This document shows positions 26,819-49,200 of a stretch of DNA of 64,000 bases, piece by piece. Position numbers and translations under genes: made by a program. Source of the stretch: Patiria pectinifera. Lineage: Eukaryota > Echinodermata > Asteroidea > Valvatida > Asterinidae. Under the pieces are notes generated by a model, which was given only the letters and a program-made list of their open reading frames with translations, did no database searches and had not been told where the DNA came from. Location of the stretch: NCBI GenBank assembly GCA_029964075.1, contig CM057135.1, positions 25,652,866-25,716,865 of the forward strand, given 5' to 3'. The stretch's first letter is position 1. Each line of letters begins with the position of its first letter.

Positions 26819-27400
26819 CTACGAAAAGAGTGTTTCGCTGGGTTGTTTGAGTAACGTGGTCGGTTCATCACACTGAAGGCTCAGCGACTGGAAGGAACTG
26901 TTTCGTCTCACTACCGCCGGGCGATCGTCGGAAAAGACCGGCACGTTCTCCGCGACGACTTCGTCCAGCGGGGAATCCTCCGGGACATCGCCGAGGGAGA
27001 ACCGGCACCGAGGCGGCGTCTCAATCTCCTCAGGTTCCTCGGGTTCCTCGGAGGAGCTGGTGCGGTACCCTATCTTGCGGAGGACCCCAGTCCACGACTG
27101 GTCCTCCTCTTTACCAAAGACCTCCTCGGCGCCCAACGACTCCCGCCTAGCCCGGGCGTAGTCCTTGTACTTGGTCAGAAGCCACTTGAACCGCTGGACC
27201 GCCTCTTGATGCTTGCGGAGCACCATCTCGGCGAAGCCCGTGACGATGTCCCAGGTTTTCTTGGTGATCTCCTCGGAGTAGTACCAGTTTGCGGGGGTGA
27301 AGCGGATGACGTATTTCCCTTTGAGGGAGGTGGGGACCATGTGGGCCTTGCCAGACTGGTTGATCCGTTGAAGGAGGAATTCTGTCAAATTGTTCTCCCC
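26819..27400 (-). CDS. Copy B exon 12: C-terminal domain plus acidic tail
   Basis: The exon opens after CAG with [11 protein letters not shown] and encodes the end of the fold ([20 protein letters not shown]), then a tail from about residue 467. The tail has a basic helix-like stretch ([19 protein letters not shown]), then acidic and Pro/Ser-rich sequence ([16 protein letters not shown]) and ends [12 protein letters not shown]. Human HDC also has a long tail that is removed by processing, whereas AADC does not. This tail is not alignable to human HDC by eye. RRNSSFQS resembles a basophilic kinase site, which is inference only. Confidence 0.85.
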   Translation of the reverse strand, partial: GENNLTEFLLQRINQSGKAHMVPTSLKGKYVIRFTPANWYYSEEITKKTWDIVTGFAEMVLRKHQEAVQRFKWLLTKYKDYARARRESLGAEEVFGKEEDQSWTGVLRKIGYRTSSSEEPEEPEEIETPPRCRFSLGDVPEDSPLDEVVAENVPVFSDDRPAVVRRNSSFQSLSLQCDEPTTLLKQPSETLFS

Positions 27401-30400
27401 CTGTGGAAAGTCAGTTCAAAAAAGTAATCATGTTGCAAAGATACACTGTACTCCGAACAAAAGCGACATCAAAACAACCAAGGTTTTGTTGTAATGCATT
27501 ATGCATGATAAACGGCCAAGACTCATCTAACAGAGCAAAATATTCAGGAGCCTGAAGACACCTCCACATCATACCAAGCAAGAATCAATAAAATCCTCAT
27601 TATTCAAAAATCTGGAAAGTCCAGGGATCACGTGACTTCTTCTAAAGGATCATCCTCGTACCTTGAGCCTGAAGCACACCAGGCCGAACTCCACAGTGCC
27701 GACAACCTCGAACCTATCATCCGCACGCACCCAGGACTCGAACATCTTGGCTAAGGCCACATGCTGTTGATAAAAAAAAATAATAAAAATGCATCGTGAT
27801 TTGACTAAGATCCCCAAAAACGAGAACGAAAGAAGAAAATATCATGTTTTCCCTTTTAAATCGTCATATTTTGAAATAAATTCCCTTGAAATTTCATCTT
27901 CCAAATAAAACTAAAGCCTTTGAAAATAATATTGTTGTTACATGTTGACTTGAGCAAAGTTTTCCAACAAAGGAACAATCAAGCCGAAAGTTCAAAAGAA
28001 AAAAAGGATAAAGGATAGTCTTGAGAACGTGCACACTTGAAGTGGACTTCAAGAATTATCTGTAAAAACGCATGACAGAACCAAGTGACAACAGTCTGTT
28101 GATATGCTTACTGATCGTATGTACTCCTGCAGTCCTTCCACGCCATACGTCCTGATAACGAACCACAGTTTCAGTGATCGGAATCGCCGGCTTAATGGGA
28201 TAGTCCAGTTCTGTCAATTCAAAATGACATCCAATCAGGTGTGTATAGGCCTATTCAAGCAAAAACTCAAAACAGTTTGATAAAATGTTGATTAACATCA
28301 ACACTCATAGTAATGGAAATCGGATATAGCTTCCTTTTCGTTCCCATTCTGCAATACCGGCTGGCCAGGTGACCAGCCAAGTTACAGGGACCTTCTGTAC
28401 AGGGTGAGTAAAAAAAAACCGAAACCGAAATGTCGGGACCATTGTATTAGTGAAGTTCTGCATGTACCACTTTCAAAATCTAGGATATGAAACCCCAATT
28501 AATAAGCTTGCTTTTAGTACAAGAATCATTCAAATCACTTATGTACTTTTCAAGTTACGGAGTTTTAAACGCAACCGCCGTTTTAAGGTTCTGTGATCGG
28601 AATCGCCGGCTTAATGGGATTGTCCAGTTCTGTCAATTCGAAATGACATACAATCAATTAAGTGTGCATATTCAAGCAAGACTTAAAAAAAAGTTTGATT
28701 AAACGTTTATTTAAATGAACATTCTTAAATAAGTACCTAAGACAGTTTACCCATTCATATTCGTACGGTCGAGAGCTCGTCTCGTGGTCGGCCTTAGACG
28801 GTTGATAATACACCGGCTGGCTGGTCCTAAACACTTTTCCAGTGTCACATGAAACTTTGACTCCTATGAAATCCGGTGACTTTAACCGTTTTATTGGCTG
28901 AATCCTCACAATCCTCACGTGGGCATGCGCAATACTACCGGTAAGTCAGTATTTCATAGTCCTAAATTCACACTACACCGGCACAGCTGCATAAAAGGAG
29001 TTGTTTACGACTACTCACGAGAAGAACATACCATAACATAGCTAGGGCCCTTTCGAAAAACATGAAGTAAAATTGTTGAAGAAAATCGTTGAAAATTTAT
29101 TATTTTTGATTTATTTTAACTTTTGGACCGAAAAGTTTTGATTTTTTGACCGAAATGATATTTATGAATGGGAATAAATATGTGCTTGGCCGGTATTAAA
29201 TACTATGCTTGGCCGTTATTAAACACTATGTCTAAGACCGGATTGGAGTCTGGACGCTGATAATGACCCTTGCTTTCGGCTCTGGTCATTATCAACGTCC
29301 AGACTCCAAACCGGTCTTAAACATAGTGTTTAAAACCGGCCAAGCACACATTTATTCCCTTACTCACATTTAATGGAAATCGGATATAGCTTCCTTCCCG
29401 TTCCCATTCTGCAATACCGGCTGGCCAGCTGACCAGCCAAGTTTCAAGGACCTTGTATAGACCATTTGCTTTCGTCAGCCATCTTTGAGGTGTTGAGGTG
29501 AACGCAAGTGAGGTCTGTCGAACAAAAGCGCAGACCCCAAAGATTGCTGCAGTGCGACAAACATACACGCGATCAGTTTTACTCTTACCCTGTAGTCCAG
29601 AAGGTGTTTCTCGTGTTCATCTTCCATGTAGTAGATGCGGTTGATGGAGAGTGCTTCCACTAACAAGTACTTGTTTCTCACCCTGAAAAACAGAAGGCCA
29701 TTTTAAATATCAAAGGCAAGTGTGTCTATAAAATCAAAGAGTTTGAAGGTCTGAATATTTGCCAAAAAAAGTTTGAGTGTGAAATGCCCTTTTTTTTTTT
29801 TAACAAACTGTTGATTGTACATTTTTGAAGGACTTAACTTACATGCAAAAGACTGTCTCATCGAAGGGTGACCATTAGAAAGGTAAGTAGCTAATATTCA
29901 GCAAAGCTAAAATTTGAAACAGATTTGTTGAAAAGGCCTGGTCTGAATTCGCTGAGAAAATCCATCGAGATTGGACAAAAATCAAAATCACAAATGATCG
30001 GCAGTTGTTTGCGGATGTTTGGCGACCGTTTGTGATTTTTTTCAAGGTATAGGCATAAGGCTAGGCAAGCATCGCCTTCATGACGCAATCTCATGCTACT
30101 GTAAGAAAAGAAAGCCATTTAAGGAAGGATATTTACCACATGACTGAGCAGTCCATACCCACGTGCATCCACTTAATGGGATTGTAGTTGAAAGACGTCA
30201 CGTACTGGAACAAAATAATGAAAGAAAGTTATTTTGGCATAACACTGGTTCTTCTATAGCGTTGTTTTCTCGTCTCTCCGTATTATTTAGTAACTAAATT
30301 ATAATGCTTACCATTAGTCCTATGATAAAAGGATATGAGAGTCAAGGATTCATAACCGGACGTATGTTAATAAAATAAACTACCCATATTATGACATTAT

Positions 30401-33400
30401 AGTCGGGCAGTTTTGTCTCTCATACCTGGAACCCTTTGAGTAGGTATCTGTACTCCGGGCAGATGAGTGCGTTACCACCGTAGGCGCCGTCCACGTGAAG
30501 CCATAGGTCCTTCTCTGCGCAGACTTGCCCGATCTCCTCAATGTTGTCCACGGCTGCACTGCCTGTTGTTCCGATAGTTGTACAGACCTGAAATTAAAAA
30601 ACACTTATTGGTGTAGAAATAATAACAAGGTCATGTGGTTCGTGCAAGAAAATTGTGTCTTTTGACTTTTGGCGACTGTGGACAATGACTTTTTTTAATT
30701 GACTAGATTGGTAACGATCAATATCTTAAAGCCAATATTTGTTGTTGTGGGGGGGGGTTATTGATTGATTGATTTTTCTAAGGGGCTTCATGTTCTAAGA
30801 ATATAAACACTTCAAAATTATTTACTTTATTTACTTTATTTCGGGAGTATTACGTTATTTCGGGTGTCGTACATTAAGGTGACTCTCGGGAAAATATTGC
30901 CGGACATTTCTGTTTTTACTTACAAAGAATGGAACCATTCCACTTGCGATATCCTTCTGCAAGATAAATGAAAGAAGCAACACTTCTGATTTACCCGCAG
31001 TTCAAATCTAACCCAGTCCGCATGAATTCAAATGTGTATTTCGCATACTAGCAAAATATTCTATGACAATGAACCTACCAAGTTTCATGCCGATTGGACA
31101 TTGTCAATGTTTGAGTATTTTTTTTTTTTTTTTTTTACATGTTTCGCCTTCCCTTTATGGGGCTATGTGCTTTTAATACCTTCTGCACATAACCTATAAA
31201 GGCCTGTAACAGAGTCATGGGCTTGTCACTCATCTCGTTACTCCTTTAACTGTGCCATGGTGCCTCACAAGATTGAGTGGGATGGTTTGCACGGGCGTGT
31301 GATAATGAACGCTAAATTGAACCGGTATTTAGAATCCGTTTGACTGCTCAGAAACGGGCATTGAAATTACCTCCACAGCTTCGCGGAGAGTCTTCCCGCG
31401 GAGCGAAAACTTATCGTCAGTCGGCAAAATACGTCTCTTCACGAAGGCAATGTTCGCTGCCTTCTCCACCGACGAATGAGCCTGAGAAAAGAAGGAGTCA
31501 ATTTAATTAATACAGCTTGCAACATCTGACATTACAGATAAAACTGTTCATGGTAGTCTACCAACTACTTTGATGCTATCTTCTTCCCTCCCTCTTTTAG
31601 GAGGGGTGAACCATGCTCTCCTCCCATATCGCAAACCCTCACTGTAAAAAGGGTGAGGTCGTACATGGCTAGAAAGAGGCTCGGCTAGCGCACTGTACCC
31701 TTCAAAGTTGGCTCCCTTCCAACATGACAGGGATACAAAAAGAAGGAACTTTTTGTAGCCCAATGCGTGTGTACCTCTTCTGAGAAATAAGCCACCAGCT
31801 TGGACAGCAGGATGCAGTCATCTTCTCCTGGGTGGGTCTCCTTCAAGGCAGTGATGGTTTTGGTCCTGGCTGCAAACATACACACAAGGGTGCACTCGCT
31901 AGATGAGGCCTACAAAACAAAGTAGAAAGCAGGATCGTATTATCTCCTTGCATTCGAAACCAAAGAAAGTATACAAACCCTATAGAGTTCCTCCCTAGCT
32001 CTATGAACACACACAGTTGCGGGACATCAGTGCCACGCAAAACTGCTCGACCAGTCTTCCCTAAACTTCTGGATCTGCTAATATATTTGCTACCTTGGCC
32101 GGTAGTTGGCAGATATTAGGTCCTCGACAAGTCATGAATTGTTGCGATCTTCACCTCCCCACTTGTAACAGTAAATCATGTTGCTAGACGGTGCATGCGC
32201 TGTTAAGAAGTTGTACCAAGTTGTATGGTTTATTTTCAAAGGGGTGTGTTTGATGTGAAGCAGAGGCCGTGAAATAATTTCTGGGATGGGCCAAGTAAAC
32301 ATTTCCCTTTCCATGCCAAAACCTTGTGTAACCATACTCTGCCTTTGAATTACTTGCGCAAGAACCCCCCCCCCCCAAAAAAAAAAACCCGCCAAAAAAA
32401 CCCACAAAAAACACGGGGTCCATTGCATAATGAGGTACACTACTTATGCACTGTCTTACTGAGGGAAAATTTGATCGACTTTTTCCCAGACGTTTCGGTT
32501 TAACGTCATACCAAGACTTGTCCATTTCCATGAGGTATATGGGACCATGTATGCCCATCTTTACCTGGATGACCCCTCCCCCTTTACCCCCCTCGGTGTA
32601 AGGTAGCAGTTCCTTGGGAAGACCCATCATGCGTCCCACCCAGTCAACCATGACCGTCTCCAACTCCGTCATGACGGGACAGGCGATCTGCCAAGAAGAA
32701 AAAAATGTAATTTTATCACATGATTGAGAAGCGCTCCATAAATGTTTCAATAGGCCATATTTTTGAGCGCACGAGGGCGCTGCTACGACGCCATTTTGAG
32801 GGCGCTGTAACGACGCCAATTTGAGGGCGCTGTGACGACACTTCTTTGAGGGCGCTCTAGCGACGCCATTTTGACAAATTTTCACAAATGCGAATCCAAA
32901 TAGGTTATTCACGTAAGTTTACATGATGGTATTATTCAAATGTTACCGTTTTAAAATCTTTAATTTTGAGATCGAAGTAAGGTTTCAAAATTGCTTCAAT
33001 AAATGAGATAATTGTCTACCTTTTGTTACCAGAGAATTACGTCATGACATCATCATTATTCACTAAAATGTCATTTTGCAATCGGCAAAATGTTGTGGCC
33101 TTGGCCGGTCGTGGTAGGAAATAGTATTATAAGGTGTGTCATTTAAAATGGAAGACGTTTCTGTGTGCTTACAGGATAACCATCCACAAACCTCACATTG
33201 ATAACAGAAACCATTTTGATCAGGCACACTACAGTCAACACCACTACAATACAACCACATCTACCATCATGCAACAACCATAACACCATCACACACTTAT
33301 CTCAACCACCTCATCTCAGCTGTGCGCTGTTCACGGGAAATACTCAGAACCAAAGTTCACTTACATTGTAGCCGTCTTTCAAATTTGAAAAGAAGTTGCA

Positions 33401-35944
33401 CAGAACGCCCTCACCGTTCGGTGGCCATGGAAAGTACAAAGTACTTATGCGTAATACATAGGAACACAGAGGGCGCTCTGTGCAAGCTCCTTTTTACTTC
33501 ACCCCTTGTACATATTGTAATTTAATTAAAATAACAATAATACCTCAAAGATGGCTACCGAGTGCAGATGGTCTGTAACATTAATGTTCTCACCCAGGTA
33601 AAGCTGATGGCGCCAAGACCTGCTGCGAGGAACTCGCCCAGCATCGATGGGTAGGAGTTACCACCGGGGAAGTAGGCGTGGAAATGAGGATGCTGCCAGT
33701 GGGTCATCTGTCAATGTAGGAGCAAGTAATAAGGTAAAGGAACTATCTTGTCTTGTTTCTATGGATTGAAGGATTTGCAATGAAATATGAGTGCCGTGGC
33801 CTCATGGTCCGGAGCTTTGAATTCGCAGTCAGGGGATAATTCTGCAGGTTTGGGGTTCGAGTCCAGCCTGGGTTTATGGTGCGTGTGCCCATGGGCAAGG
33901 CACTTTGTCACTCATTGCTTCTCCCCACCCAGGAGTAAATGGGTACCTGTGAGGGCAGAGATGGTTATTGTGGTTGAGTTTAGCTGCTTTGCGCCGAAAT
34001 GGCAGCATCGAGCTGTATGTACTCCCAGGGAGGGGCTGAGATTGTCTTTGGAATGTTTGATTGACCCAATGAGCAGGTTATATATTAAAGGGTGGATACG
34101 TGCGCTTTATAAATACGCATTATCATTATTATGAAAACCTCTGACGTGTTTTGTGATAAGGTTTGGATGTCAAGAAACGTTTCTGGAGACATGATAGACG
34201 GATCAGAAGGCAATGGGCTGCATTAAGTCTTTTGAAAGCAGGGATGTAAATCCCAATTTCTCTTTTTTGAAGTTGCAGATAACATTTCTAAGCCATACAC
34301 TTTTCTTCAATATCTCAAACCTTCCTGCAAAACGCCTAGTCTGAGTATCACCCGTTATCCACGGAGCCAGTCTCCATATAACGTCTGATATATCAAAACA
34401 TGCAGATTTATGCGATCTCGCGCCTCATCCAATCAGCGAATCTGCTCAAAAAGTAACACAGACTACAAAATGCCATCCTAAGTTGTAAAAGGTTTTCTTT
34501 AATTTGTTGTATTTAGATAAAAAAAAACACGAGGGAAGCGTCCGTTTTCTCCTGTGTTGTCGATTTGCCGTGCATGCAAAACTTCATTGCTGTTTTTTTT
34601 TATGGCAACCTTTTGTTTGCTGGCCCTGTTTTTCTTGCAACACTTGCTCTCAAAATGCCATTTTGGCAACCCTCCCACGAGTACATGACTCTTAGCTATT
34701 CGATTTTATAAATACAAACAGCAATTAGGTCGCGTTTCAACAGTGCACAGCTTAATTCAGGCCTTTTGAAAGTTGGCATTTCCCCCAGGGTTCTGTCTGA
34801 TCACAGTAGCTTATCCCTCCCCCGCCCCCACTTCACGGTTATTGGTTTCCAGTTTTATTGTGATATTCGGTGGTGATTGATATGTTTTGAAGTTTGGCTG
34901 CAAACGGTATTTCAATGAATAAAATCTTTCAAGGGCACTATACGGGTCAAATTGGCAAGAATGAAAACCAAGACCTGTACCATGGTAAGTATTATAACAC
35001 GAACCGAATAGTTTGACAGATGTACGTTGGGTTGAATAGTTCAAGCGGATTGGAGGTACTCGGATCATAAGTACTTTTGATTATTTGCGACCTTGTTGAC
35101 GCCATTTGGCCGATGCAAGAATATGAACAAGATGATGATGAAAAAAATAAAATAAAAACGAGAACACTCTATAAATAAACAAGAACAACAGACAACACAA
35201 AATCAAGAGCAAAAGAACGAGAACAAAAGTAAAACACGCACAAAAACCACACCAAGAACATCAATAATAATGAACAGGAACAACAAGATATTCAAAGAAC
35301 AATTATACAAAAAGAACAAACAAAAAACGTGAAAAATACATCAAAAGAACAACGATAAACAGTAATAAAAGAACAGGAACAAGTACAGTTACAGCAGCAA
35401 CAAGACCAACACAAACATCAACATTATTGATTAATTATTTGTCACACAAATTGACGCTTGAGAGCTGTTCAGGTTATAAGTATAAGTCAACCCATGCATG
35501 CATCAGAAGTTTTCTAATGCTGATGCAGAAACCGAAATAAGCCTTTTCAACGACATGATCTGGACTATTATTGTTTACAGTCGTGAAAACATAAGGTTTT
35601 GAAATAACTTTTCTTTGGGCTGTCAGCCTGTCACCAGTGTCAGCCGATATGGAAAAAATCTGGACCGTGGCTCTTTAATCCAGGTCTGTGCTGATTACTT
35701 TTGTTCTATATACACTAATTCTCATTATCTAATCACAACTCACCCCTGGTAGGATCTTGTCTTGTACGTCCGTCATGATGTCCTGCCAAGCCTCGGGTTG
35801 CTGGGGCGCATTCGCAGGTAACAGTTTGTGCAGGTAGCCTGGCTCCACGGAGGGTAGCACGGGACGGTCCTTGACGCCCTTCAGGTAGTCCACGATAAAG
35901 TCAGCCACCTCACCGGCAGACCGACGGAACTCATCGCCCTCCAT
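26819..35944 (-). CDS. Copy B: complete HDC/AADC-like PLP decarboxylase, 12 exons, 607 aa
   Basis: Exons, minus strand: 35944-35744, 33707-33594, 32687-32565, 31909-31775, 31481-31371, 30956-30924, 30587-30426, 30204-30137, 29682-29589, 28210-28112, 27763-27662, 27400-26819. The CDS is 1824 bases including the stop, with GT/AG at every junction. The family removes the alpha-carboxyl of histidine, DOPA, 5-HTP or tyrosine to give amines in the cytosol. By near-gapless counting against human AADC, the PLP-stacking His is residue 193 (AHSS), the PLP-nitrogen Asp is 272 (HVDGAYGG), the Schiff-base Lys is 304 (NPIKW) and the loop Tyr is 333 (NRIYY). Residue 354 is Ser (IPLSRRF), as in histidine decarboxylase. 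Oddities are DGAYGG for the usual DAAYAG, NPIKW for NPHKW/NPSKW, and an acidic, Pro/Ser-rich C-terminal tail of about 130 residues. Overall wording is HDC-like ([16 protein letters not shown]), but the substrate is not certain. Confidence 0.92.
28400..28593 (+). mobile_element. Dispersed repeat, copy 2, at the exon 10 duplication joint
   Basis: It starts CAGGGTGAGTAAAAA and matches bases 1-191. Its right end abuts the broken exon 10 copy. Confidence 0.7.
28594..28629 (-). pseudogene. Broken second copy of copy B exon 10
   Basis: These bases repeat the 5' third of exon 10 ([12 protein letters not shown]) with one silent change and the intact acceptor side. The copy stops where a dispersed repeat (28400-28593) abuts it. 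The intron sequence upstream is also repeated (compare 28211-28399 with 28630-28729 plus 29353-29460), so a tandem duplication of exon 10 and part of intron 9 was later truncated. Confidence 0.8.
28730..29359. mobile_element. Palindrome-tipped element, copy 1
   Basis: A 440-base body starting TACCTAAGACAGTTTA is joined to a palindrome at 29170-29359 (GGGAATAAATATGTGC ... GCACACATTTATTCCC). The tandem-duplicated intron copy at 28290-28320 lacks it. Other copies are at 41625, 56573 and 59594. Confidence 0.75.
30137..30204 (-). CDS. Copy B exon 8: PLP lysine exon
   Basis: It reads [22 protein letters not shown] plus TG of a split Trp codon. The lysine of NPxKW forms the internal aldimine. Ile replaces the His or Ser that usually precedes it in AADC and HDC. 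Confidence 0.9.
30426..30587 (-). CDS. Copy B exon 7: PLP aspartate exon
   Basis: It encodes [15 protein letters not shown], then [16 protein letters not shown] and [14 protein letters not shown]. Asp272 corresponds to the residue that hydrogen-bonds the PLP ring nitrogen. Family members normally read DAAYAG here, and both Ala-to-Gly changes are shared with copy C. Bases 30452-30534 are almost identical to copy C, unlike the rest of the exon. Confidence 0.9.
32772..32874 (+). repeat. GAGGGCGCTGT minisatellite
   Basis: About four units of roughly 29 bases with GACGCCATTTTGAGGGCGCT, in copy B intron 2. Confidence 0.75.
33791..34133 (+). repeat. Full-length tRNA-derived SINE
   Basis: The head has TGGCCTCATGGTCCGG (box A) and GGGTTCGAGTCC (box B). 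The body has CACCCAGGAGTAAATGGGTA, and the end has GCGCTTTATAAATACGCATT then (ATT)n. It lies in copy B intron 1. Confidence 0.75.
35110..35430 (+). repeat. A-rich (AAC/GAA) low-complexity stretch
   Basis: Imperfect AAGAAC, AACAAC and AAAAT repeats in copy B intron 1. Nothing else is recognisable between 34140 and 35740. Confidence 0.7.
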
Positions 35945-36025
35945 ACAGAAATTCTTTAGTTATAGTCTGGGTATACCTTGTTCTGTGTTGACTGAACCTG
36001 AAATGAGCCGGACGTATCGAGCGGC

Positions 36026-36034
36026 CTATTTATG
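36026..36034 (-). promoter_or_regulatory. TATA box of copy B
   Basis: CATAAATAG on the minus strand, 82 bases upstream of the ATG at 35944. The surrounding 100 bases are conserved in copy A, where the same position also keeps a TATA-like motif. Confidence 0.55.
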
Positions 36035-37524
36035 TGAGCAGCATCAACCTCAAATTGGCCATATCGGACTGAGCTGCAGAGACGGGACACGTAGGCCAAA
36101 TCCTTCCACTTCAACAATGGAGCGCCAAATGATCCAAATTCAGCAACTTGCTCATTCCCCGTTCATGGTAAACGAAGTCCTGAATCAGAGGGTTAGGCTC
36201 TTTATGTTTTTGTTTTTCATTTAATCTTAGTTTTGATCTTAGTTTGTTACATGAGTGCACCTGGATGGGAATGGAAACTTTATAAACTTTCAAAAAAAAT
36301 AAAAAATAAAATAAGCAAGTGGACATTAACTCCTAAAAGAAAGATTTACTTGGAAAAACATCCTTTGACAAAAAGAATCACTTTATAACAGTAATTCATG
36401 TTTTGAAACCACACTGAAATTGACTGACATAAAAAAACAATGAAAGGACTGACAGCGAAACTTAATCGATCTGAACATCTGTACGCGTATCATGCAATTA
36501 ACTTTTCAGATACCTAATTTATTGGATAGGCGTATATCATTTCGGTGTGGCGTTCCACACCAGATGACAGTGGCATATTTCTGCCAACTTTTTATATCCT
36601 GGTAGTGAATCAGTTCGAAGTTTCGGTTTACCACGCATGGCTGGATGGAGATTGACCCGAGTATTACTGTACGTGTCGGCACGCATGAGTTTCCTGTGGC
36701 CAACGTGCAGAAAGTGTAAACGATGTGTGACACGTAGCGCACGTTTTGGTCCCCGTCCCAATTTTCCAAATGAATTCGCGCACTGACCAACAGTATTGTA
36801 AAGAGCATAAAGAGCAACTCAGTGCGATAAACCTCTGTACAAAAAGGGCAGGTTGACCAAGGTTCTCTTCTTGTTTGTTTACACTGTTAAAATAAATCTG
36901 TACTTTTACATTGATTCCCCCCGGATTGTTCGTTTAACATTTATGAAGGTAAAATAGGATGATTGCTTTTTTTTACTCCTTGTAAATTTTCGGGGGAAAA
37001 ATAACTTTCCAAAATGCGCTTCCCTCAAAAAAGTGAGTGGTTTCTGTACAGGTAGACTTGACTCAAGTCGGTTCCTGGGGTTTACATGAACACTAGAGTA
37101 GGCGTATGCGTATACCTCTCAGGTCTAATTATAAAGTGCGCCCTCACGTGCTAGCCTTCCTGCCAGAGCAGGAATATCGACTTGGCTATTTAGTTGGGGG
37201 GTTTCTGGCGGGGGGGGGGGGCATGGCCAATTCGCCCCCCCCCTCCCCGATCCAACCCGGTAGGAACAATTAAAAAGAAGGTTCAACAAAACAGCCGAAT
37301 ACAAAGCGAACTTGCAAATCCAATTACAAAAACCTATGAAGAAAAACAAAAGAGAAACTCCGAGAAAACTAGAATGGTGATGATCATATTTTTTGCGCAC
37401 TTTGCAGACAGTCTTTACATAGTTTTTATACATGCAGTAATGTCAGGTTTGGTATGATTGGTTAAAAGTGAACACAATTCTTATATCGATTCTTATACCG
37501 TAATAAATCAATATTTGTTTGTTT

Positions 37525-37680
37525 ACCCTTCACCGACGTATAGACACGATACTCAGTGTACGTGTTACCTCCCGAGTGGAAGTTGGGGAAAATGCACTAG
37601 AAAGCAAGAAGATGTGACGGAGTGATTTTTTCCAACTTTCACTCTGTAGGTAACACACTGCTTATACGTCGGTGAAGGGC
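37525..37680. mobile_element. Small foldback MITE
   Basis: CCCTTCACCGACGTATA at the left pairs with TTATACGTCGGTGAAGGG at the right. A single arm recurs near 44975-45000. Confidence 0.65.
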
Positions 37681-37959
37681 AAGACCTAATGTCAATTTCA
37701 TCATTCCGACGCAAATTCATGTTATGAATAGTACGAAAGTATAGTCTGTTAATATGCATTCTGCATATATCCATGTCTCGCTATGGGTCTTCACTACAAC
37801 ATGTACACGAAGGCCATATCATACAAATGCAATGGCAGATACAATGTACCGATCCAGTAAGCCCCTCCCACTGCGCACGTGGCAAATTAAATAGGTGTGC
37901 GCTTTTTCAATGAAACAATTCACACGCATGTCATTTGTTTTCGTTTTGCTGAAAGAACA

Positions 37960-38174
37960 CTTACCTTTTTGTGATCCTTGGACTGAACTTTAAAACGGAG
38001 GTTTTGTTCAAAATTCTGTAACTTGAAAAGTGCATGAGTGATTTGAATGATTCTAGTTCTAAAAAAACCTTATGAATTGGACTTTCATATCCCAGATTTT
38101 GAAAGTGGTACATGCAGAACTTCACTAAAACAATGGTCCCGACATTTGGGTTTCGCTTTTTTTGACTCACCCTG
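37960..38174 (-). mobile_element. Dispersed repeat, copy 3
   Basis: Reverse complement of the family at 1-191 and 28400-28593, ending TTTTTTTGACTCACCCTG. Confidence 0.7.
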
Positions 38175-38243
38175 TGGAGCCATATAGGCAGAACCAAAGC
38201 TACATTTCAAACAGCCATAGGTAACGATAAAACACACCAGTAA

Positions 38244-38611
38244 GGCCCCCCCAAAAAATATTCGGTCTCTGGTCAGACCAAAGTTCCAGAATTGACGCGG
38301 CCACGCGGCTTTTTTTTTTTTTTTTTTCAAGCTTGGATTGTACAGACAAGGTTGTGGTACTATTTTGCTTTTTTGGTGTCCTCGTACATTGGTGTCCTCC
38401 ATAATTTGCCTTGGTGCTTTCGATCATTTGCCTTGGTGCAATTTCCCATTCCTTCAATCCTTGGTGCTCTTTGGTAAAAAAAATGAGAAGGTTCGGAAAT
38501 AGAGGGCGCTGTTGGAGCTACCGCGGAACATTTTGGAAAAAAAAAGATCGACGCGCATGCTTAAAATCGACGCGCGCGCTGACCAGAGACCGACTTATTT
38601 TTTTGTTGGCC
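38244..38611. mobile_element. Harbinger-like MITE copy 3, TAA duplication
   Basis: It runs from GGCC to GGCC with TAA at 38241-38243 and 38612-38614. It contains the same CGGTCTCTGGTCAG and GGTGCTTTCGATCATTTGCC blocks as copy 2, in inverted order. Confidence 0.75.
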
Positions 38612-38934
38612 TAACCTTGATTAATTTTTTTAAATTTTTTTTTAACATAAACCTGATTTTGATTGAAACAACAATATTTCCCCACCCAGGTGAAACTGAT
38701 GCAGCCCAAGCCGGCAGACAGAAACTCGCCCAGCATCGAGGGGTAAGAGCTACCAGTCGGGAAGTAGGCGTGGAAATGAGGATGCTGCCAGTGGGTCATC
38801 TGTCAAGGTAGGAGCAAAAAAAAGAAGTTCCTTTTGCCGATTTATTAGTTGAGGTGTATAGCATAGCCCGTGGAGTTTTACATCGTCCCACAACGATGTG
38901 GATAAATTTAGGTGGGTTAAATTAATTGATAGGA

Positions 38935-39213
38935 TTTAAAAATAGAGGAAATTATCGAGTAAAACCACGCAGAAAGAAATATCTTCTGCGAAGAAGTGTG
39001 GTTCTGAAAAGAACCGGTTGGTAGAGTGTAGAACTCAACGTTTCGGACAGTGTGCTCTGTCCGTCCTCATCCTCCTGAGGACGGACAGAGCACACTGTCC
39101 GAAACGTCGAGTTCTACACTCAACCAACCGGCTCTTTTCAGAACCACACTTCTTCCAAGAAGAGATTTCTTTCCACATGGTTTTACCCGAAAATGTCCTC
39201 TATTTTATCTCAT
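38935..39213. repeat. Near-perfect 280-base hairpin
   Basis: The centre is at about 39073. The inner 75 bases of each arm are almost perfect (GAAGTGTGGTTCTGAAAAGA, GTGTAGAACTCAACGTTTCG, ACAGTGTGCTCTGTCCGTCC) and weaker pairing extends to TAGAGGA / TCCTCTA. It lies 135 bases upstream (minus sense) of copy D exon 2. Confidence 0.85.
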
Positions 39214-39390
39214 CCGCCATGCAAAGCTTCAAGTCATATATATGATAGGATTTCAGTTGTTTAATTAGTGGATGGTAGGCTGTTAAAATGCCCATGCATT
39301 TTCTTCATGCATCTTTCTACTGCTAAGAAGTCAAACGGACCTTCAATCATATTTTCTTCTTCTTTTTTTTATTTGAAAATATTTATTAAA

Positions 39391-39421
39391 CTAGCCGGAT
39401 GCCGCTTTTTGCGCGGCACCC
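39391..39421 (-). mobile_element. Possible Helitron 3' end
   Basis: Minus strand: GGGTGCCGCGC, AAAAA, GCGGCATCC hairpin, then GGCTAG and T. Hairpin plus CTAG before T is the Helitron 3' signature. The 5' end was not located. Confidence 0.45.
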
Positions 39422-41624
39422 ACACTGCAAAAATGCTGGGTAAACAAAAGCTGGCCAACTTCATTTCGGCATTTGCTGGGCAATTTCACGGCAACAAATG
39501 GATACAATGTTCAGTTGGGTAAAATAGCATGTTGACCAACATTGGTCAAATCATAATTTCTATGATTTGGGAAAACGTTGTCCATTTATTGGGTATCTAT
39601 TTGATGGTTCGATAAACTTACTAAAATGTTGAGCAAAATACCTTTTTCCCCCCAAATGTTGGGAATGTTTTACACGAGACTGGGCACTTTTTGCTTACTT
39701 AGCATTGAATGAAGTGTTATAGGCAGGCCGGCCATATTTCAGCAATTTTAGCTCGTAAAATAAGTCACGGTGGCGGAAGATTTGTTGAGAGAATTGGAGC
39801 TGTCGGACCTTGTTTGTTTATTTCCATTTGTACAACAAAAATACAATGAGAAATTACAAGGAGTTGAGCAGAGAGAGGCAGCTTAGATATCGGGTAGTTG
39901 TACACCATTCTGTAATTCAGTGTTAATAATCGTCGAATTTGACGAATTTGTGTCCGGAGAAAAAAAACTGTATATATTTTCAGATTTTTTTGCTGATGAA
40001 ACCCCCCCCCCTCCCGCAAAAATTCCTGCATCGGCCCCTGTTTGCTGTTTTGATTGAGTTGTATTTAATATGTAATAATTGAAAAGCGAGTCATCAACGT
40101 ATTTTCTTTAACATGTTGTCTGGTCTCGAGTTATATTTAATACTGAAATAATTAAACACCAAGTCATTAACGTATATTGTTTTTTAACATTTTTTTTCTC
40201 GGCTAATGGCTTACCAACAATTGGTTCTTTACATTTACCCAATTAATGGATGATTAAAAGTACGCAACTGTTCCGTCTGTATTTTTCCCCATGGTTTAGG
40301 TAAACGTGTTTGCCCAACGGCCGCTGATCTGAACATTTTTCGCTCGAAAGATGTGGAAGTTGACTACTGAACCTACGTTGGGTAAACAACTGGAAAACAA
40401 TCGTTTTTTTATTCTATGCACTCAGATGTGCAACTCCAGCGAGCATTCTAAAACGACTCGATCAGAATGATATACACTTCTCGTTTTAAAGCATATTTAC
40501 AAGCGACACGGCTGTGACATGCAAAAAAGGTACATGTATATACATTATAACTATAACAGACTCTAAAAGAATTACACGTCTTTCATACATAAATGTAAAT
40601 GCGTAAATGCATAAAACTGACCGGAGGCAGCATGCCGACATTATGCTGCGGATCAGCACTGAGCAGTGCCCCGCGTATATTGTATTGCCATTGATTGCCT
40701 ATGTATTTTACTGTCTGTGTTGGCATGTATGTACGTTGACGAGTTGTTCAGACCATGGAGCTAAATAAACCGCAAACACACAGACTGCACACCCACACTC
40801 AAATTTGTATCCTTGTGGAGACATTTCTATGTTCTCGTGTACTAAGCTGTACATCTAACCACACCTTTTTTTCTGTATAGCATAGCGGAGATTTGGGGAG
40901 ACCAGTAAGTTTTTTGTTAATACCAACCCCTTGTAAGAGGTTTACAGCATTCTTTAATACCGACCAACTCACCCCCGGCAGGATCTTGTCTTGAATATCC
41001 GTCATGACGTCCTGCCATGCCTCGGGTTGCTGGGGCGCGTTCGCAGGTAACAGTTTGTGCAGGTAGCCTGGCTCCACGGAGGGTAGTACGGGACGGTCCT
41101 TGACGCTCTTCAGGTAGTCCACGATAAAGTCAGCCACCTCGCTGGCAGCACGTCGGAACTCATCCTCATTCATGTTGCAAGTTAGTAAGTTGTCTCGTTT
41201 TGGTGGAAAAATACAAGTATTTAATGTACATGTATGTGTCTATAAATGACGCATATGTTCGGTGAGGTGGTAGCACATTAGGTCGTAGGTCGTGGGGCGT
41301 ACGTGCAGCAGTTGCATACCACAAATATCAAGGCGCGCCCTCAGTAGACCATCACAGTTGCAACAGTTTGGGTCGAGAAGCCCTTTTGTCGTGCTTGAGA
41401 AATCTAAAACTTTAAAAACGAGTGAAAGGGCCACCCATGAATCTATCTCAATCCGTTTCAGATTTTGGAGGAGGTCCGGACCTACGATAAAACTTTTCTC
41501 AAGGTCATTGTACAAGTTTAGTAGGCGGTGTGTGATTTTTAGCTAGCCTAAGCAGCCACCCTAGATGTGGAAAAATGGCGGTGATTTAATAAAAATCAGA
41601 GTAGGCATACCTCATGTGCACATG

Positions 41625-42228
41625 TAAGACCTCAGACGTAATGACGTCTCGCTTAGTTCAATATAAAGACCGGCTGGCTGCTCTGACACTTTTCCAGTGT
41701 CACGTGAAATTTGGACTTGTATGAAATCCGTTGCCTTTAACCGTTTTATTGGTTGAACGTTCACAATCCTTACGTAGGCATGCGCAGTACTACCAGTGAG
41801 TCAGTATTTCATAGTCCTTAATTCACAATACACCGGCACAGCTGCGTTCTGCGGCACACTGTGATGTACGCACGACGCGCGCGTCAAATCTCCATAAGGA
41901 GTTGTATACGACGACTCTCTCGAGAGAAATACCATAAGTATAGCTAGAGGGGTGTCCCGAAAGACATGAAGTAAACTTGTTGAACAAAATTGTTGGAAAT
42001 TTTACAATGTTTACTTGAAGTTTGACTTTTGGATCAAAAAGTTTGTATTTTTATTAACGGAAAGGTATTCATGAATGAGAATAAAATTTGCTTGGCCGGT
42101 TTCAAACACTCTATTTAAAATCGGCTGGACTCTGGATGTTGATAATTGATGTTGGTAATTATCAGCATTCGGACTCCAACCGGTCTTAAACATAGTGTTT
42201 AATACCGGCCAAGCACACATTTATTCTC
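41625..42228. mobile_element. Palindrome-tipped element, copy 2
   Basis: It shares GACACTTTTCCAGTGTCACG, AACCGTTTTATTGG and the AATACCGGCCAAGCACACAT palindrome tip (42078-42228) with the copy at 28730. Confidence 0.7.
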
Positions 42229-42515
42229 TTTAATACTAATATTAATAATAATGGGGGAAAATCGAAAGTAAAAATACTGATATAAATCTTCTTGCGTTAT
42301 CTATCATTTACATAACAGAAATATAACTTAATTCACTGATAACCCAAAGTTAATCGCTGCAGTAAAGGTTAATTAAAGAAGTAGAAGTAGCACTATTTGT
42401 GTAGTTTCAAAAACAACCGCGGCAGCGGAGATAAAAAAAAAAATACAAAAATACAATGAGCTGAAAATATTTGGTCTCTTAAGTAATTTTATGATTTAAA
42501 TGTTATGATATACTT

Positions 42516-42657
42516 CAGTGTTGTAGTACTCGTACTCGTACTCGTGCTCATGGAAAAAAATGCCTTGCATTCGTACTCGTATAGTACTCATGACTCTCGT
42601 ACACATGACAAAGTATTCGTACACGTACTCATGGAAATGTACTTGAGAACAACACTG
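42516..42657 (+). mobile_element. hAT-like MITE with GTACTCG array, behind copy C
   Basis: CAGTGTTGTAGTACTCG at the left, GTACTTGAGAACAACACTG at the right, GTACTCGTACTC between. Flanking 8-mers match at only four positions, so the target duplication has decayed. Confidence 0.65.
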
Positions 42658-42934
42658 ATACATAAAGCCATTACAATTGTCGAAAAACATAAAAAGAGTG
42701 ATTGTAACAAATTGATCAGAAACACTGAATACACATCGTGTTCAAATTTGATTGTCACGATACCAGATATTCGTGTTAAACACGGCCAGAAAGATGCACC
42801 CGTATATAAAAACACAACTCGAAAATAGATGCAATGATCGGTTAGGACACTTTATACAATGTACACAATTTTATGCTGATCTGCCTGTCCCTGTTGGCTG
42901 AGGGAATGTAAAGAGATTCGCATTCTTATGGACG

Positions 42935-43216
42935 TTAAGAATTCTCCGGGACACCCTCCTTTCTTCCAAAGACTTCCTCGGAGTCTGCCGACTCTCGCCC
43001 CTGCAATCCCTGCCCGTCTCCCCGGCTTTCGCGAAGTACCACCTCGGCGAAGCCGGTGATAATGTCCCAGGTTTTCTTGGTGATCTCCTCGGAGTAGTAC
43101 CAGTTGGCGGGGGTGAAACGGATGACGTATTTCCCTTTGAGGGAGGCGGGAACCATGTGGGCCTTGCCAGACTCGTTGATCTGTTGCAGCAGGACTTCTG
43201 TCAAAGTGTTCTCGCC
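42935..43216 (-). CDS. Copy C exon 12: shortened C-terminus
   Basis: It starts [12 protein letters not shown] and keeps [18 protein letters not shown], as in copy B. After AEVVLRESR it diverges and rejoins B-like sequence at [10 protein letters not shown] before a stop ten bases further on. A deletion of the lysine-rich block and loss of the downstream tail are therefore visible. The folded domain appears complete, so this end need not inactivate the enzyme. Confidence 0.8.
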   Translation of the reverse strand, partial: GENTLTEVLLQQINESGKAHMVPASLKGKYVIRFTPANWYYSEEITKKTWDIITGFAEVVLRESRGDGQGLQGRESADSEEVFGRKEGVPENS

Positions 43217-46200
43217 CTGTGGATGGTCAATGCGGATTTGAGTGGAATCAAAGGAGACAGCGAACAATGTCAAGGTTATCCAGATGCACACACAGTCCCC
43301 TATCCAGTTAATGTCTAGCTTGCATACATGTCAGTGCGGACTTATCCTCGATATAAATATACATATTTATTGAAGTCCCAAAGAATTGACTCTTATATAA
43401 TTTAAAATCATGTTGGAATCATCCTCGTACCTTGAGCCTGAAGCACACGAGGCCGAACTCCACAGTGCCTACAACCTCGAACCTGTCATCTGCACGCACC
43501 CAAGACTCGAACACCTTTGCCAAGGCCACGTGCTGTCATCCAAAATAATCATATATACGAAATCCATGAAGTTGATGAGCTGTATACCCAACACCCAGAA
43601 TCACACAATCACAAAATGCGAACATGCGAAAAATAGAGCTCCTCATAGCCTTTTTATGTACTCGCCAACCACAAAGCAAAGGGTGAATCAAAATGGGGGT
43701 CCACAAACAAGACAGGAAAATGTGAGGTACCTGTTGATATTTTTGTTGAACTGCGATAAGTTGCAAGAAGAAGGAAGCAAGAACTTGGTAAGGAGATCCA
43801 CAGGCGGCAGTGCGAGGAAAGAAACTTGAAGAGTACTACCAGGCCTTCGAACGCATGGACGAGAGGAGGCAGCAAATCCAGTGGAGCATGTGAAAGTATG
43901 CTATGGAGAAGTGAGAAGTGAGAGTAATGGGTGTAAACGGGTGGAAAGATAATGTTGACGGTGGTGAAGACCTACCGATCGTATCGCTGATTGCAGACCT
44001 TCTACGCCGTGCATCCTGATGACGAACCAGAGTTTCAGTGATCGAAACCGCCGACCCAGGGGGATGGACCAGTTCTGCTCGAATTTGATGAAAACAAAAT
44101 CATACGGACCTTACATCAGCAGATAACATTATCATTCTTCAAGCTAAAAACAGCAACCAAAACAAGATAACGAGGCTTTGCATGCCGGAGAGTACACCTT
44201 CCGAGATGTTTGTAGATACACGATGTGAATGACTGTCTCTAAAAGAGAAACGGTTCTGAGAAGAACGAGTCGGGGTTGTTTAAAGGCCCACGCGACATTT
44301 TTCAAATGTCTTCTGATACCGAATAACAGTGCATGCATACTGATCGAAACGTTGATTTAGCATCTCTGGCTGCTCTCAGAACCATATGCGAGCTTTAAGA
44401 GACAGTTACTTTAAGGGTTGGTGCCGCAAACTTCTCCCAAGATATTCACGGCTTGTACGATTAGCTCAGTCTGATAGAAAAGTGCCCACTGAGATAAATC
44501 TATTTTGAAGCGATTCTGTGCTCTTACCTTGTAATCAAGCCTGTCTCTTTCCTCTTCATCATCCAGGTAGTAGATGCGGTTGGTGGAGAGAGCGCTTATT
44601 AACAACTTCTTGTCCCGCACCCTGAAGAACGAACAACCAAACTGATAGCATCTCTCAATTGTCAATTGGTAAGTGGTTTACTTTCAGTAGTTCTATAGGT
44701 GAGTAGTTGTAGGTGTTTTCAATTTATGGTTAAGTTCCTAATGTTGTACCTATTAAACAGTGGCCATTCCCCATGTGTTGCAGTTAGCCATCGATGTTGT
44801 TGTCGGCGACTTGATAGCTTGGTTGCGGGACCGCTGTTGTATCAGATTCGAGCAAGCTCGGTGGTCGAGTGGTAAGACGTCTGCGCTAGTAAGCAGGAGG
44901 TCGTTGGTTCAAGTCCCACCCGATTAGTTATTTTTCTCATAATCACTCAAGACAACGCAGACTATACAGTGTTTATAAACATACGTCGATGAAGGGCAAA
45001 ACCAAATATTGGATTTTATCACGTTTGATATCAAAGGAGAACGTTGCAGTGATTTCAATCTGTGTGCTATTTTTGCCTAAATCTGTTGAGACGATATTAG
45101 GGTATTTCCTGGAGAAACTTTGCTTGATTAAGTTTGCCAAAGTTTAAATTTGAATTAAATTACAGAATTTAAAATGATCAATATTGAACACAATCAATTC
45201 AACAAACCAAACGGAGCCATTCAGAAGAAACTGACTTTCAAACAGAAAAGATTCTTAAAAGGGAAGCATCATACCACATGACTGTACCGTCCGCACCCAT
45301 CCGCATCCACTTTGCAGGGTTGCTGTTGAATGATGATAAGTACTGCAGCAAAAACAACATTTTGGGGGTTCAAAATAATGGAAGGGACTTATACCGACCG
45401 GCCGGTCGGCCGTTGCAAGTGAGAAGGATTGTGACGGGTGGGATGGGGTGAGGGAGAACCCCCTCGCTTGACGCTTGGATGCTCTTTTTTCTAATCCCTT
45501 TTTCTTTGCTTCCTTTCTATGTTGCCTAATTTGTAGTAGTCTCTTTCACTGTTCTCTGGTTAAATTAAAAGGAAACGACACTTTTTGAAGGGGGCGGGGG
45601 GACTTGGGATGGAGGATAGGGGATCTGCCAGTGGTTACCGTTTGCCGGTTTTTTTGTAATAGGGATACATTGAAAGAATTCCCCTGTCCTGTGACATTGT
45701 ATACGAAAGGGGAAGGAAAAAGCCGGCAATTCTATCTAAACCTGGAATCCGTTGAGTAGATATCTGAACTCCGGGCAGATGAGTGCGTTACCACCGTACG
45801 CGCCGTCCACGTGAAGCCATAGGTCCTTCTCTGCGCAGACTTGCCCGATCCCGTCAATGTCATCAACTGCTGTACTGCTGACAGTCCCAAGGGTTGCACA
45901 AGCCTGAAATTTATTTAGTAATCAAGATAACCTTTTGTGGGTTGCGCAAACAAACATACAAACACCCCAACACCCCAACACCCCAACAGACAAACATAAT
46001 TATATGGGAGTCACAGTATGAAGTGAAGTCCCCCTTTTTTATTTTTAAAGAACCTGTGTAACACTTCTAACGTAGATAGGGTAATTATGTGGTTTAGGTT
46101 TAAAAGAACAGTGCAAATTTTGTTTGTTCTTAACAATCTGTTCATGAGGTTTAAAAAAAAATTTGTTTACACTCACATCTGGAGACCAGAACCCACTCAT

Positions 46201-49200
46201 CTTTTGGAGATGCTTACAGTACATACTCGCTTTACTTTTACTTTTTCTTTTTTTTACGATAGACGTGGTACAGTTTTGGGAATAGCTGGATTAACGAAAC
46301 TCTTCTTCCTACATCTGGAATCTGGATGCGTAGTAAAAGTTAGATTCGTTTCTGACACAAACTATTGAATTGCATAATACTTACAAAGAATGGAACCATT
46401 CCTCTGGCTGTATCCTTCTGCAAGATTAATGAAAGAAGTGAAAATCTTGAATGATGGAATGATGTGAAGTAAAAATACTATCTCCGTTAATATAGCTGTT
46501 GAGTATCAAAAAAAGAGAGAAAACAATCAGTATAGTTTCGGTGACTGACGCCCCTTCCTGTACCTTATACCGCACTAAACGTCACACACAAGGATTGAAA
46601 TGTAATATTGTGAAGCTTCATATGCCGCACAATCACTGTTATTTCAGTAGCACGGCAGGGACGTACATGTCTGGCATAATCACCGAAGAACGTTTAGGTT
46701 GCAACCAAGTAAATTAATTCTCATAGACACCAGTCCTTTTAGAAATACTCAGAGCTCTTACAGGTGTTCAGGTTGAACAGAAAAATGATTATCAACATGT
46801 CGTCTTTCATTTTCCTTTCGAGTTTTGGTGGATTGAGCAATGAATGTTTGGAGAAATTAAACAAGACCACCCTTAAAACGAATGATAGTTCCCAAACTGG
46901 AAAAGTAGCCATTTTGAAAGAGGATCCCTCCTCTACAATAATTATGGCTAAATAGCGCCACTTTCGGACCTAATTGCATCCAAAATGCTTAGAATTTGAA
47001 GCCCAAGTCCAGGCCAGGGGTGCAGTGCCATTATGTCTTCAATCCCCCAATTCCATGGCTCTCAGAAATCTCAATATGTAGAATAATTTGAAGGTATAAC
47101 AATTATTTATGAGCTCGGCGGACGGATTCCATGCCATATTTACTCGGTGTCATCTTTTTTTTTAAAGTATCGTTTTGTTAATTTACGTGACATTATACCT
47201 CCACAGCTTCACGCAGCGTCTCGCCACGCAGAGAAAACTTGTCGTCGGTCGACAAAACACGTGTCTTCACGAGGCAAATCCTGGCCGCCTTCTCCACTGC
47301 AGAATGAGCCTGAAAAAGAAAAGAGGGCGCTAGATAAAAGGTGAGGTGAAACCTCGTGATCAGTCGTGAACAATATCTGCATGTTTTGACCAGGGGAGCT
47401 TATTATATACGCTGCGGAGAGAAAGTTGATATACTTATTTAGCCCCACAATGGCTTGGGTACATGCACTACGAGTCTCAAGTGCCTGAAATCAACCCACC
47501 CAGGAGGGTGAATGGGTACCGGCATGCATTAGCTGGGGAGTAGCCTGCGATGGACTGGCATCCCATCCGGGGGGACCGGGGATAGACAGTTTCTCAGTCG
47601 GTTCATGCCAAGGAAACCGGAGATGGGAACGCCGGTCTGATGGGCCAAATTGGCTCTCGACAGACTTTACTTACATAATTCAAGAGTCAACTAACAATAA
47701 AAAGAATACACGGAAATGTGCTTGGTGTGATACCTCCTCCGAGTAGTAAGCCACAAGTTTGGATACCAAGATGCAATCGTCCACGTCTGGATGCGACTTC
47801 TTCAGAGTTGCGATGGTTTTTGTTCTGGCTGCAAGCATGCACACAAGGATGCACTCGCTGGATGAGGACTACAGCAATACAAGAGAGAGAATACATCGAA
47901 GAACACAGGGTATGTATGTTCCTGTAAAGTTCAACTGGACATTATATCGGTAACTCTTTTTGAATTGATGGATTTGACTAATTTTCTCTTTTTACTTTTT
48001 CCCCGAGTCCCTCCCCTACCTTTTTGATATACGTGTACAAATATAATGTCTGTACTTAAATTTGTTAATAATAAGATTTTAAGGGGTTTTTTTCTATTGT
48101 GATAAACTTTCTAAATTAGGCAATGTGTTTCATTTTTCAAAGGTTGATAAAGAGTTGGCATCCGGATCCCGGGTGTTTTGGTAGGCCTATGTATCAGGAA
48201 TTTGTCCCAAGTCCAACCAAATGGCCATTTCGCCCCCAAGACCATTCACAAGTTCATATATAGATATAGCATCACTGTCCCTCCTAGGCTATCCACCCTC
48301 TTACCGAAATTCAGGGGCGGATCTTGGTTTGGATCAAGGGGGGGGGTAAGCCGCAAGGGAGGAGGTTAAATTGACTCGTGTTTGCTGTGTTTCTCTACAC
48401 GTTTTTCCTATTTTGTTTTTGCGGCTGAAGAGGGGGTTCAGATCCCCTTATCCCATACAACTTTCACTGCATAAAAACAAATTACACGTCACGTTTCCGA
48501 AATCTTGGGGCCAACTTCTCCCGTCTTTACCTGGATGACCCCTCCCCCTTTACCCCCCTCGGTGTACGGCAGCAGTTCCTTGGGAAGACCCATCATGCGT
48601 CCCAACCAGTCCACCATGACCGTCTCCAACTCCGTTACAGCGGGACTTGCGATCTGATAATAATAATAATAGTAATAATACTGAATCTTATATGGAGCAC
48701 GTATCTACCAACAATTAGGTGCTCAAGGCACTGGAAATTATGTCTATTATATTTAAGACAGGTAAATGAAGTTAATGACAAATGTGAGACCCACTATGTA
48801 GCACCTTATAAGGGTTGACAAGGTGCTGCGGCGCATATTGCAGCCACTGCCAGAAACACCGGGGCAAACCCCTTCTCTTAGCGATAAGTGTTTTACTGGG
48901 TTCTTTAACGTGTATCACACAACACACGGGACCTACGGTTTTACGTCCCATCCGAAGGACGAAGCAATAATGGTAAAGTGTCTTGCTCAAGAGCACAAAC
49001 ACCATTTCCCCCCGGTTAGAATTTGAACCCATGTACCACGGCACACGAGTCGAACACCGTAACCATTGGACCACAGCACCCCATGATGAGGAGAAGAAAT
49101 ACATATCAAATCAAACACTCGAAGACGCCCAATTAAAACGTCACTTGAAACTCTGGCAGTTTATTTGTATAATTATTTTGAATCATTGTTGCAGTTGAGT

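Follow-up and report, generated by a model that had tools for sequence, protein, structure and literature searches.

Two neighbouring genes encode closely related decarboxylases that differ at a residue associated with substrate choice: are we looking at a histamine-maker beside a dopamine-maker, or at something else? The question is raised by a stretch of 64,000 nucleotides of contig CM057135.1 (assembly GCA_029964075.1, positions 25,652,866 to 25,716,865), which we call the window and number from its first letter. Two genes for group II pyridoxal phosphate (PLP) decarboxylases, here copy B and copy C, lie on its minus strand. At residue 354, exon 10 of copy B (28112-28210) encodes serine (codon AGC at 28192-28190) and exon 10 of copy C (43976-44074) encodes glycine (codon GGT at 44056-44054). 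An earlier note on this DNA had seen the difference, with exactly these coordinates and this exon number, and had proposed that the two genes parted towards imidazole and aromatic substrates. The observation and the identity of the residue stand, while the proposed split of substrates is not supported; the note had weighed two of the three animal classes of such enzymes, histidine decarboxylase (HDC) and aromatic L-amino acid decarboxylase (AADC), and had omitted tyrosine decarboxylase (TDC). On balance we think it probable that the window contains a tandem array of the TDC-like branch (copy A, copy B, a fragment D and copy C), rather than one gene for HDC next to one for AADC. Judged by their sequences, B and C seem to form part of this third branch, and because both seem TDC-like, the Ser/Gly difference is no sign of a histamine-maker facing a dopamine-maker.

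The position itself is secure. Exon 10 of B aligns without gaps to residues 348-379 of the AADC chain 3rbf (phmmer, PDB sequences), so the variable residue falls on 354 and not elsewhere; it is Gly in 3rbf and Ser in the HDC chain 4e1o, in line with the note. Chance is not at issue here, because the site is homologous and the difference is one of 80 across 468 aligned catalytic-domain positions of B and C. Residue 354 reportedly determines substrate specificity in human HDC, going by the title of a 2012 paper by Komori et al., which agrees with the claim that it contributes to specificity. The residue was read in alignments for 12 of 16 distinct PDB sequences (all but 6jrl, 6eei, 6eeq and 7xin). 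The AADCs of human, pig and Drosophila have Gly here, and human HDC has Ser, but Ser is also found in the Tyr/DOPA (3,4-dihydroxyphenylalanine) decarboxylases 6liu and 6eem, and Gly in 6eew and in the tryptophan decarboxylase 6khn. We take 6eew to be the tryptophan decarboxylase of Catharanthus, and 6liu and 6eem presumably come from opium poppy. Among bacterial relatives (the best 80 of at least 588 confirmed ones, the sample meant throughout), Gly is present in 80 of 80. Since Tyr/DOPA decarboxylases also have Ser, Ser354 alone is no pointer to histidine.

Residue 354 has on its own served to name genes AADC or HDC, and PMC10570526 terms it diagnostic. For sponge symbiont genes, that paper seems to assign Ser354 to aadc and Gly354 to hdc, which is opposite to the human enzymes. 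In excerpts of a study of olive (PMC11507401), the matching serine (S369, beside an invariant Arg) is taken to indicate a preference for phenolic over indolic substrates, and the olive enzymes are active on Tyr and DOPA, not on Trp or Phe. In silkworm, according to excerpts of PMC6494836, Gly353 raises specificity for DOPA; we take it to be the same position as 354.

The rest of the pocket, compared in human AADC numbering with nine reference rows, agrees with neither the HDC nor the AADC class. Among the class-separating positions 80, 82, 101, 302 and 354, B agrees with HDC at 354 only: human HDC has Tyr80, Ala82, Leu101 and Ser302, where B has Phe, Gly, Ile and Ile, and C has Phe, Thr, Ile and Ala. 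Copy C combines AADC-like Gly354 and Thr82 with Val246, Ala302 and Ala309, where AADC has Thr246, His302 and Phe309. Parts of PMC2809104 place His302 of pig DOPA decarboxylase (DDC) 3.8 Å from the 3-hydroxyl of carbidopa, give Asn at this position in both Drosophila TDCs, suggest that residue 302 may discriminate DOPA from tyrosine, and report that Drosophila DDC gained no tyrosine activity when its Thr82 was replaced by Ala or Ser. In our comparison, human and Drosophila AADC, the three plant rows and 80 of 80 bacterial relatives have His at residue 302, human HDC has Ser there and Drosophila Tdc2 (a provisional sequence) has Asn; the Ile of B and the Ala of C are absent from all nine reference rows and from the 80 bacterial relatives. 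The AADC pattern of Gly354 with His302, present in every one of those 80, is found in neither copy (Gly354/Ala302 in C, Ser354/Ile302 in B), nor is the Asn302 of both Drosophila TDCs, which is not known to mark the class outside flies. A drift of B towards histidine and of C towards DOPA or 5-hydroxytryptophan, with residue 354 as the switch, would accord with the Ser of human HDC, with the Gly of the human and fly AADCs and with the reported role of the residue in HDC. Yet it is opposed by the Ser354 of Tyr/DOPA decarboxylases, by these pocket states in both copies and by trees that make neither B nor C, alone, an HDC or an AADC, and we regard it as very improbable.

B is 81% identical to C, and B and C compare with the references at 54% (the provisional Drosophila Tdc2), 49-50% (human AADC) and 46% (human HDC). 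The two copies are sisters, at 100/100, in all four trees, from which the partial copy A was left out and to which, where bacteria are included, 12 of the 80 relatives were added, hand-picked for spread. Without the provisional fly rows (Tdc2, Hdc and amd), B+C lies outside HDC+AADC (89/92; 92/91 with bacteria). With them, B+C joins Tdc2 (91/90; 91/92 with bacteria), and the three together fall inside a TDC+HDC group (80/95; 93/91 with bacteria). In the approximately unbiased (AU) test, forcing B alone with HDC is rejected (p-AU 4e-52), as is forcing C alone with human AADC (p-AU 5e-6). The reading of an HDC gene next to an AADC gene was dropped on the pocket residues, the trees and these tests on single copies. 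On both bacteria-containing trees the fewest changes at residue 354 number three. If Ser was already present in the common ancestor of HDC and TDC, the Gly354 of C is a reversal; if B+C lie outside HDC+AADC, the Ser354 of B is derived.

Several results weigh against a TDC-like array with a remodelled pocket in C. The Drosophila Tdc2, Hdc and amd rows are provisional sequences, with a single row for Tdc2, and that row agrees with PMC2809104 at three checkable residues only (Ala82, His192 and Asn302). Grouping B+C with AADC survives the AU test (p 0.139, 0.106 and 0.145), and grouping B+C with HDC is rejected marginally or not at all (p 0.039, 0.067 and 0.177). By phmmer score, B is closer to human AADC (543.6 bits) than to HDC (510.0 bits). 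Within the pocket, 5 of 17 listed positions differ between B and C, which is no significant excess (Fisher p 0.19), and the trend towards smaller residues in exon 8 of C is weak (P 0.089).

The pocket comparison also bears on a reading in which the difference at 354 is near neutral, one of many between paralogues with the same substrate range. The lack of an excess in the pocket over the 80 differences in 468 positions would fit this reading, as would the alternation of Ser and Gly at 354 within the animal rows and within the plant rows. Against it, published work ties both residue 354 and the equivalent plant residue to specificity, and the changes at 302, 309, 246 and 82 go along with that at 354; we consider near neutrality possible but not probable. 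Exon 8 is enriched in differences between B and C (9 of 23 positions versus 71 of 445 elsewhere, Fisher p 0.008, uncorrected for several exons), and the two copies are 61% identical both in exon 8 and in exon 9, which encodes the catalytic loop.

Returning to the TDC-like reading, the closest known counterparts include the Drosophila pair Tdc1/Tdc2. Tdc2 (the provisional sequence) is the nearest tree row, has Ser354 like B, shares His192 and Tyr332 with both copies and has likewise lost His302; the motifs THWQHP.FHAYFP, SEC.LV, S.EAHS.VEKAA and GK.HMVPAS are common to it and to B and C. The differences are the Asn302 of both Drosophila TDCs (PMC2809104) where B has Ile and C has Ala, VDAAYAG in provisional Tdc2 where B and C read VDGAYGG, and, in C, also Gly354, Val246 and Ala309. 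Human HDC (4e1o) has Ser354 as in B and has also lost His302, but it is 46% identical, differs at positions 80, 82, 101 and 302 as given above, and the best trees place B and C apart from the rows for HDC. AADC/DDC enzymes (3rbf and 3k40) are 46-50% identical, share Gly354 and Thr82 with C and have the same Tyr79-Phe80; their His302 is replaced by Ile in B and Ala in C, and they also differ from C at Val246 and Ala309 and from B at Met309. The plant Tyr/DOPA (6liu, 6eem) and Trp (6eew, 6khn) decarboxylases show the same Ser/Gly alternative, there between phenolic and indolic substrates; the three plant rows compared are 38-44% identical and, unlike B and C, retain His302.

Both copies retain Lys303, Asp271, Ala273, His192 and the loop Tyr332. 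The PLP lysine lies in exon 8, within NYNPIKW in B (30137-30204, minus strand; Ile302, Met309) and within NSNPAKW in C (45275-45342, minus strand; Ala302, Ala309, Gly311). Exon 9 encodes the catalytic loop with Tyr332 (29589-29682 in B, where it reads NRIYY, and 44528-44621 in C, both minus strand). Exon 9 of C also has Lys at the Arg347 of AADC, a position that is Arg in 51 of the 80 bacterial relatives. According to excerpts of PMC6494836 and PMC11507401, aromatic aldehyde synthases are marked by a change of His192 to Asn or of the loop Tyr to Phe. An aldehyde synthase of the insect Asn192 or plant Phe332 type was rejected because His192 and Tyr332 are retained in B and C. Both enzymes would be expected to remove the carboxyl group of an aromatic amino acid through the usual external aldimine, and their His192 and Tyr332 would favour an amine product over the aldehyde.

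Could one of the copies simply be losing its function? A pseudogene was rejected because the frames and all splice sites of B and C are intact and the pairwise comparison over exons 1-11 gives a ratio of nonsynonymous to synonymous divergence (dN/dS) of 0.19 (dN 0.104, dS 0.544). A milder form of this idea, in which C is decaying or catalytically weak and T246V, I302A, M309A, C311G and R347K arose under relaxed constraint, draws on the invariance of Thr246 and His302 in the 80 best bacterial relatives, where C has Val and Ala; Val246 occurs in C only, with Thr also in all other rows that reach this position. The shorter C-terminal tail of C (507 versus 607 amino acids in B) points the same way. 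Its intact frame, with all splice sites and catalytic residues retained, and the B-C dN/dS speak against decay, which we consider unlikely. Synonymous divergence is uneven along the genes (0.19 in exon 1, about 0.2 in exon 3, 1.31 in exon 4 and above 1.2 in exons 4, 8 and 10), a pattern that suggests patchy gene conversion between the copies.

What, then, might the two TDC-like enzymes do? B retains the TDC-type Ser354, and tyrosine would be its likeliest substrate. Relative to B, copy C carries G82T, T246V, I302A, M309A, C311G and S354G; the changes I302A, M309A and S354G, with G82T running in the counter-direction, may have altered its ring preference or lowered its activity. If its preference has shifted anywhere, this would probably be towards larger, indolic or hydroxyindolic rings. 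C is unlikely to be a strict DOPA enzyme because it lacks His302, the residue close to the catechol in pig DDC. Taken further, the array could represent a natural series of substrate diversification, in which a Ser354 ancestor gave rise to a C pocket rebuilt at several positions together for another aromatic amino acid, probably one of greater bulk, a reading we find rather doubtful. Residue 302, a published candidate site for telling DOPA from tyrosine, has in both copies changed to a state that none of the reference rows shows.

These results have implications for how decarboxylase genes are named. Calls of AADC or HDC from residue 354 alone are unsafe once TDC is considered as a third animal class, because Ser and Gly vary here between siblings that are 81% identical and that are unlike HDC and AADC elsewhere in the pocket. 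With linked changes at 302, 309, 246 and 82, the pair offers a compact natural experiment on the residues of ring preference. Additionally, parts of PMC5282848 report TDC as absent from deuterostomes other than Saccoglossus; if the placement is right and the host is such a deuterostome, a TDC-like array would contradict that absence. The spliced genes and their nearest relatives point to an animal host. The enzyme class is known, and what is new is the pair with its unusual residue 302 and, in C, residue 246, although the genes may already be annotated elsewhere. No paper title describing such a decarboxylase array was found in a search of titles only.

The models of B and C were built from a tblastn comparison with human AADC; exon 5 of C was located by blastn with exon 5 of B together with frame reading, and the 33-base exon 6 of both through frame reading. 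Copy B (26819-35944, minus strand) is an intact 12-exon gene of 607 amino acids, with exons at 35944-35744, 33707-33594, 32687-32565, 31909-31775, 31481-31371, 30956-30924, 30587-30426, 30204-30137, 29682-29589, 28210-28112, 27763-27662 and 27400-26819 (stop). Copy C (42935-60471, minus strand), also intact with 12 exons, encodes 507 amino acids from exons at 60471-60271, 55106-54993, 48653-48531, 47868-47734, 47309-47199, 46417-46385, 45903-45742, 45342-45275, 44621-44528, 44074-43976, 43532-43431 and 43216-42935 (stop). All introns are GT-AG with matching phases, and only the eighth is not phase 0. The proteins match PF00282 at 455.8 bits (B) and 440.6 bits (C), against a Pfam gathering cut-off of 27. 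The NCBIfam profiles matched were bacterial models only, all below their own cut-offs, and no relatives were found among 248 pattern matches in viral contigs. Intron 9 of B contains an incomplete second copy of the beginning of exon 10 with its acceptor (28586-28727, 81% identical to 28167-28309), which reads IPLSRRFRS.

Of copy A (1047-23059, minus strand), exons 1-5 lie in the window and the remainder, residue 354 included, beyond its start. Across these exons its protein is 96% identical to that of B, with which it pairs (dS 0.18). Fragment D (38686-41173, minus strand) consists of C-like exons 1-2 between B and C, pairs with C (dS 0.125 over these exons), has intact splice sites and phase-0 exon ends, and encodes Thr82 in exon 2; no credible match to exons 3-12 was found in 36001-38686, up to the upstream limit of B. 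It is a truncated copy or, possibly, a set of alternative first exons of B, with which the phases would fit and which might swap residue 82 of B. The intron of fragment D holds a match to the histone 3' stem-loop that barely exceeds the Rfam cut-off (38975-39020, minus strand; 34.9 versus 34 bits), yet none of the four core histones matched within the window by tblastn.

Other features lie in the introns and near the ends of the window. Intron 2 of copy A contains a tandem array with a unit of about 592 bases (11201-13805; 86-96% identity among shifted copies when the window is compared with itself) and a Myb/SANT-like open reading frame that looks transposon-type (14330-15070, minus strand; PF13837, 74.4 bits). 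A tRNA-Thr (GGT) lies in intron 1 of copy C, just upstream of exon 2 (55266-55338, minus strand), and a second tRNA match, reported by Rfam and not by ARAGORN, in its intron 8 (44855-44927, plus strand). One 16-base repeat (of the CTCATAAGTCCGACGC type) forms direct and inverted arrays near either end of the window (2766-3043 and 57990-58363).

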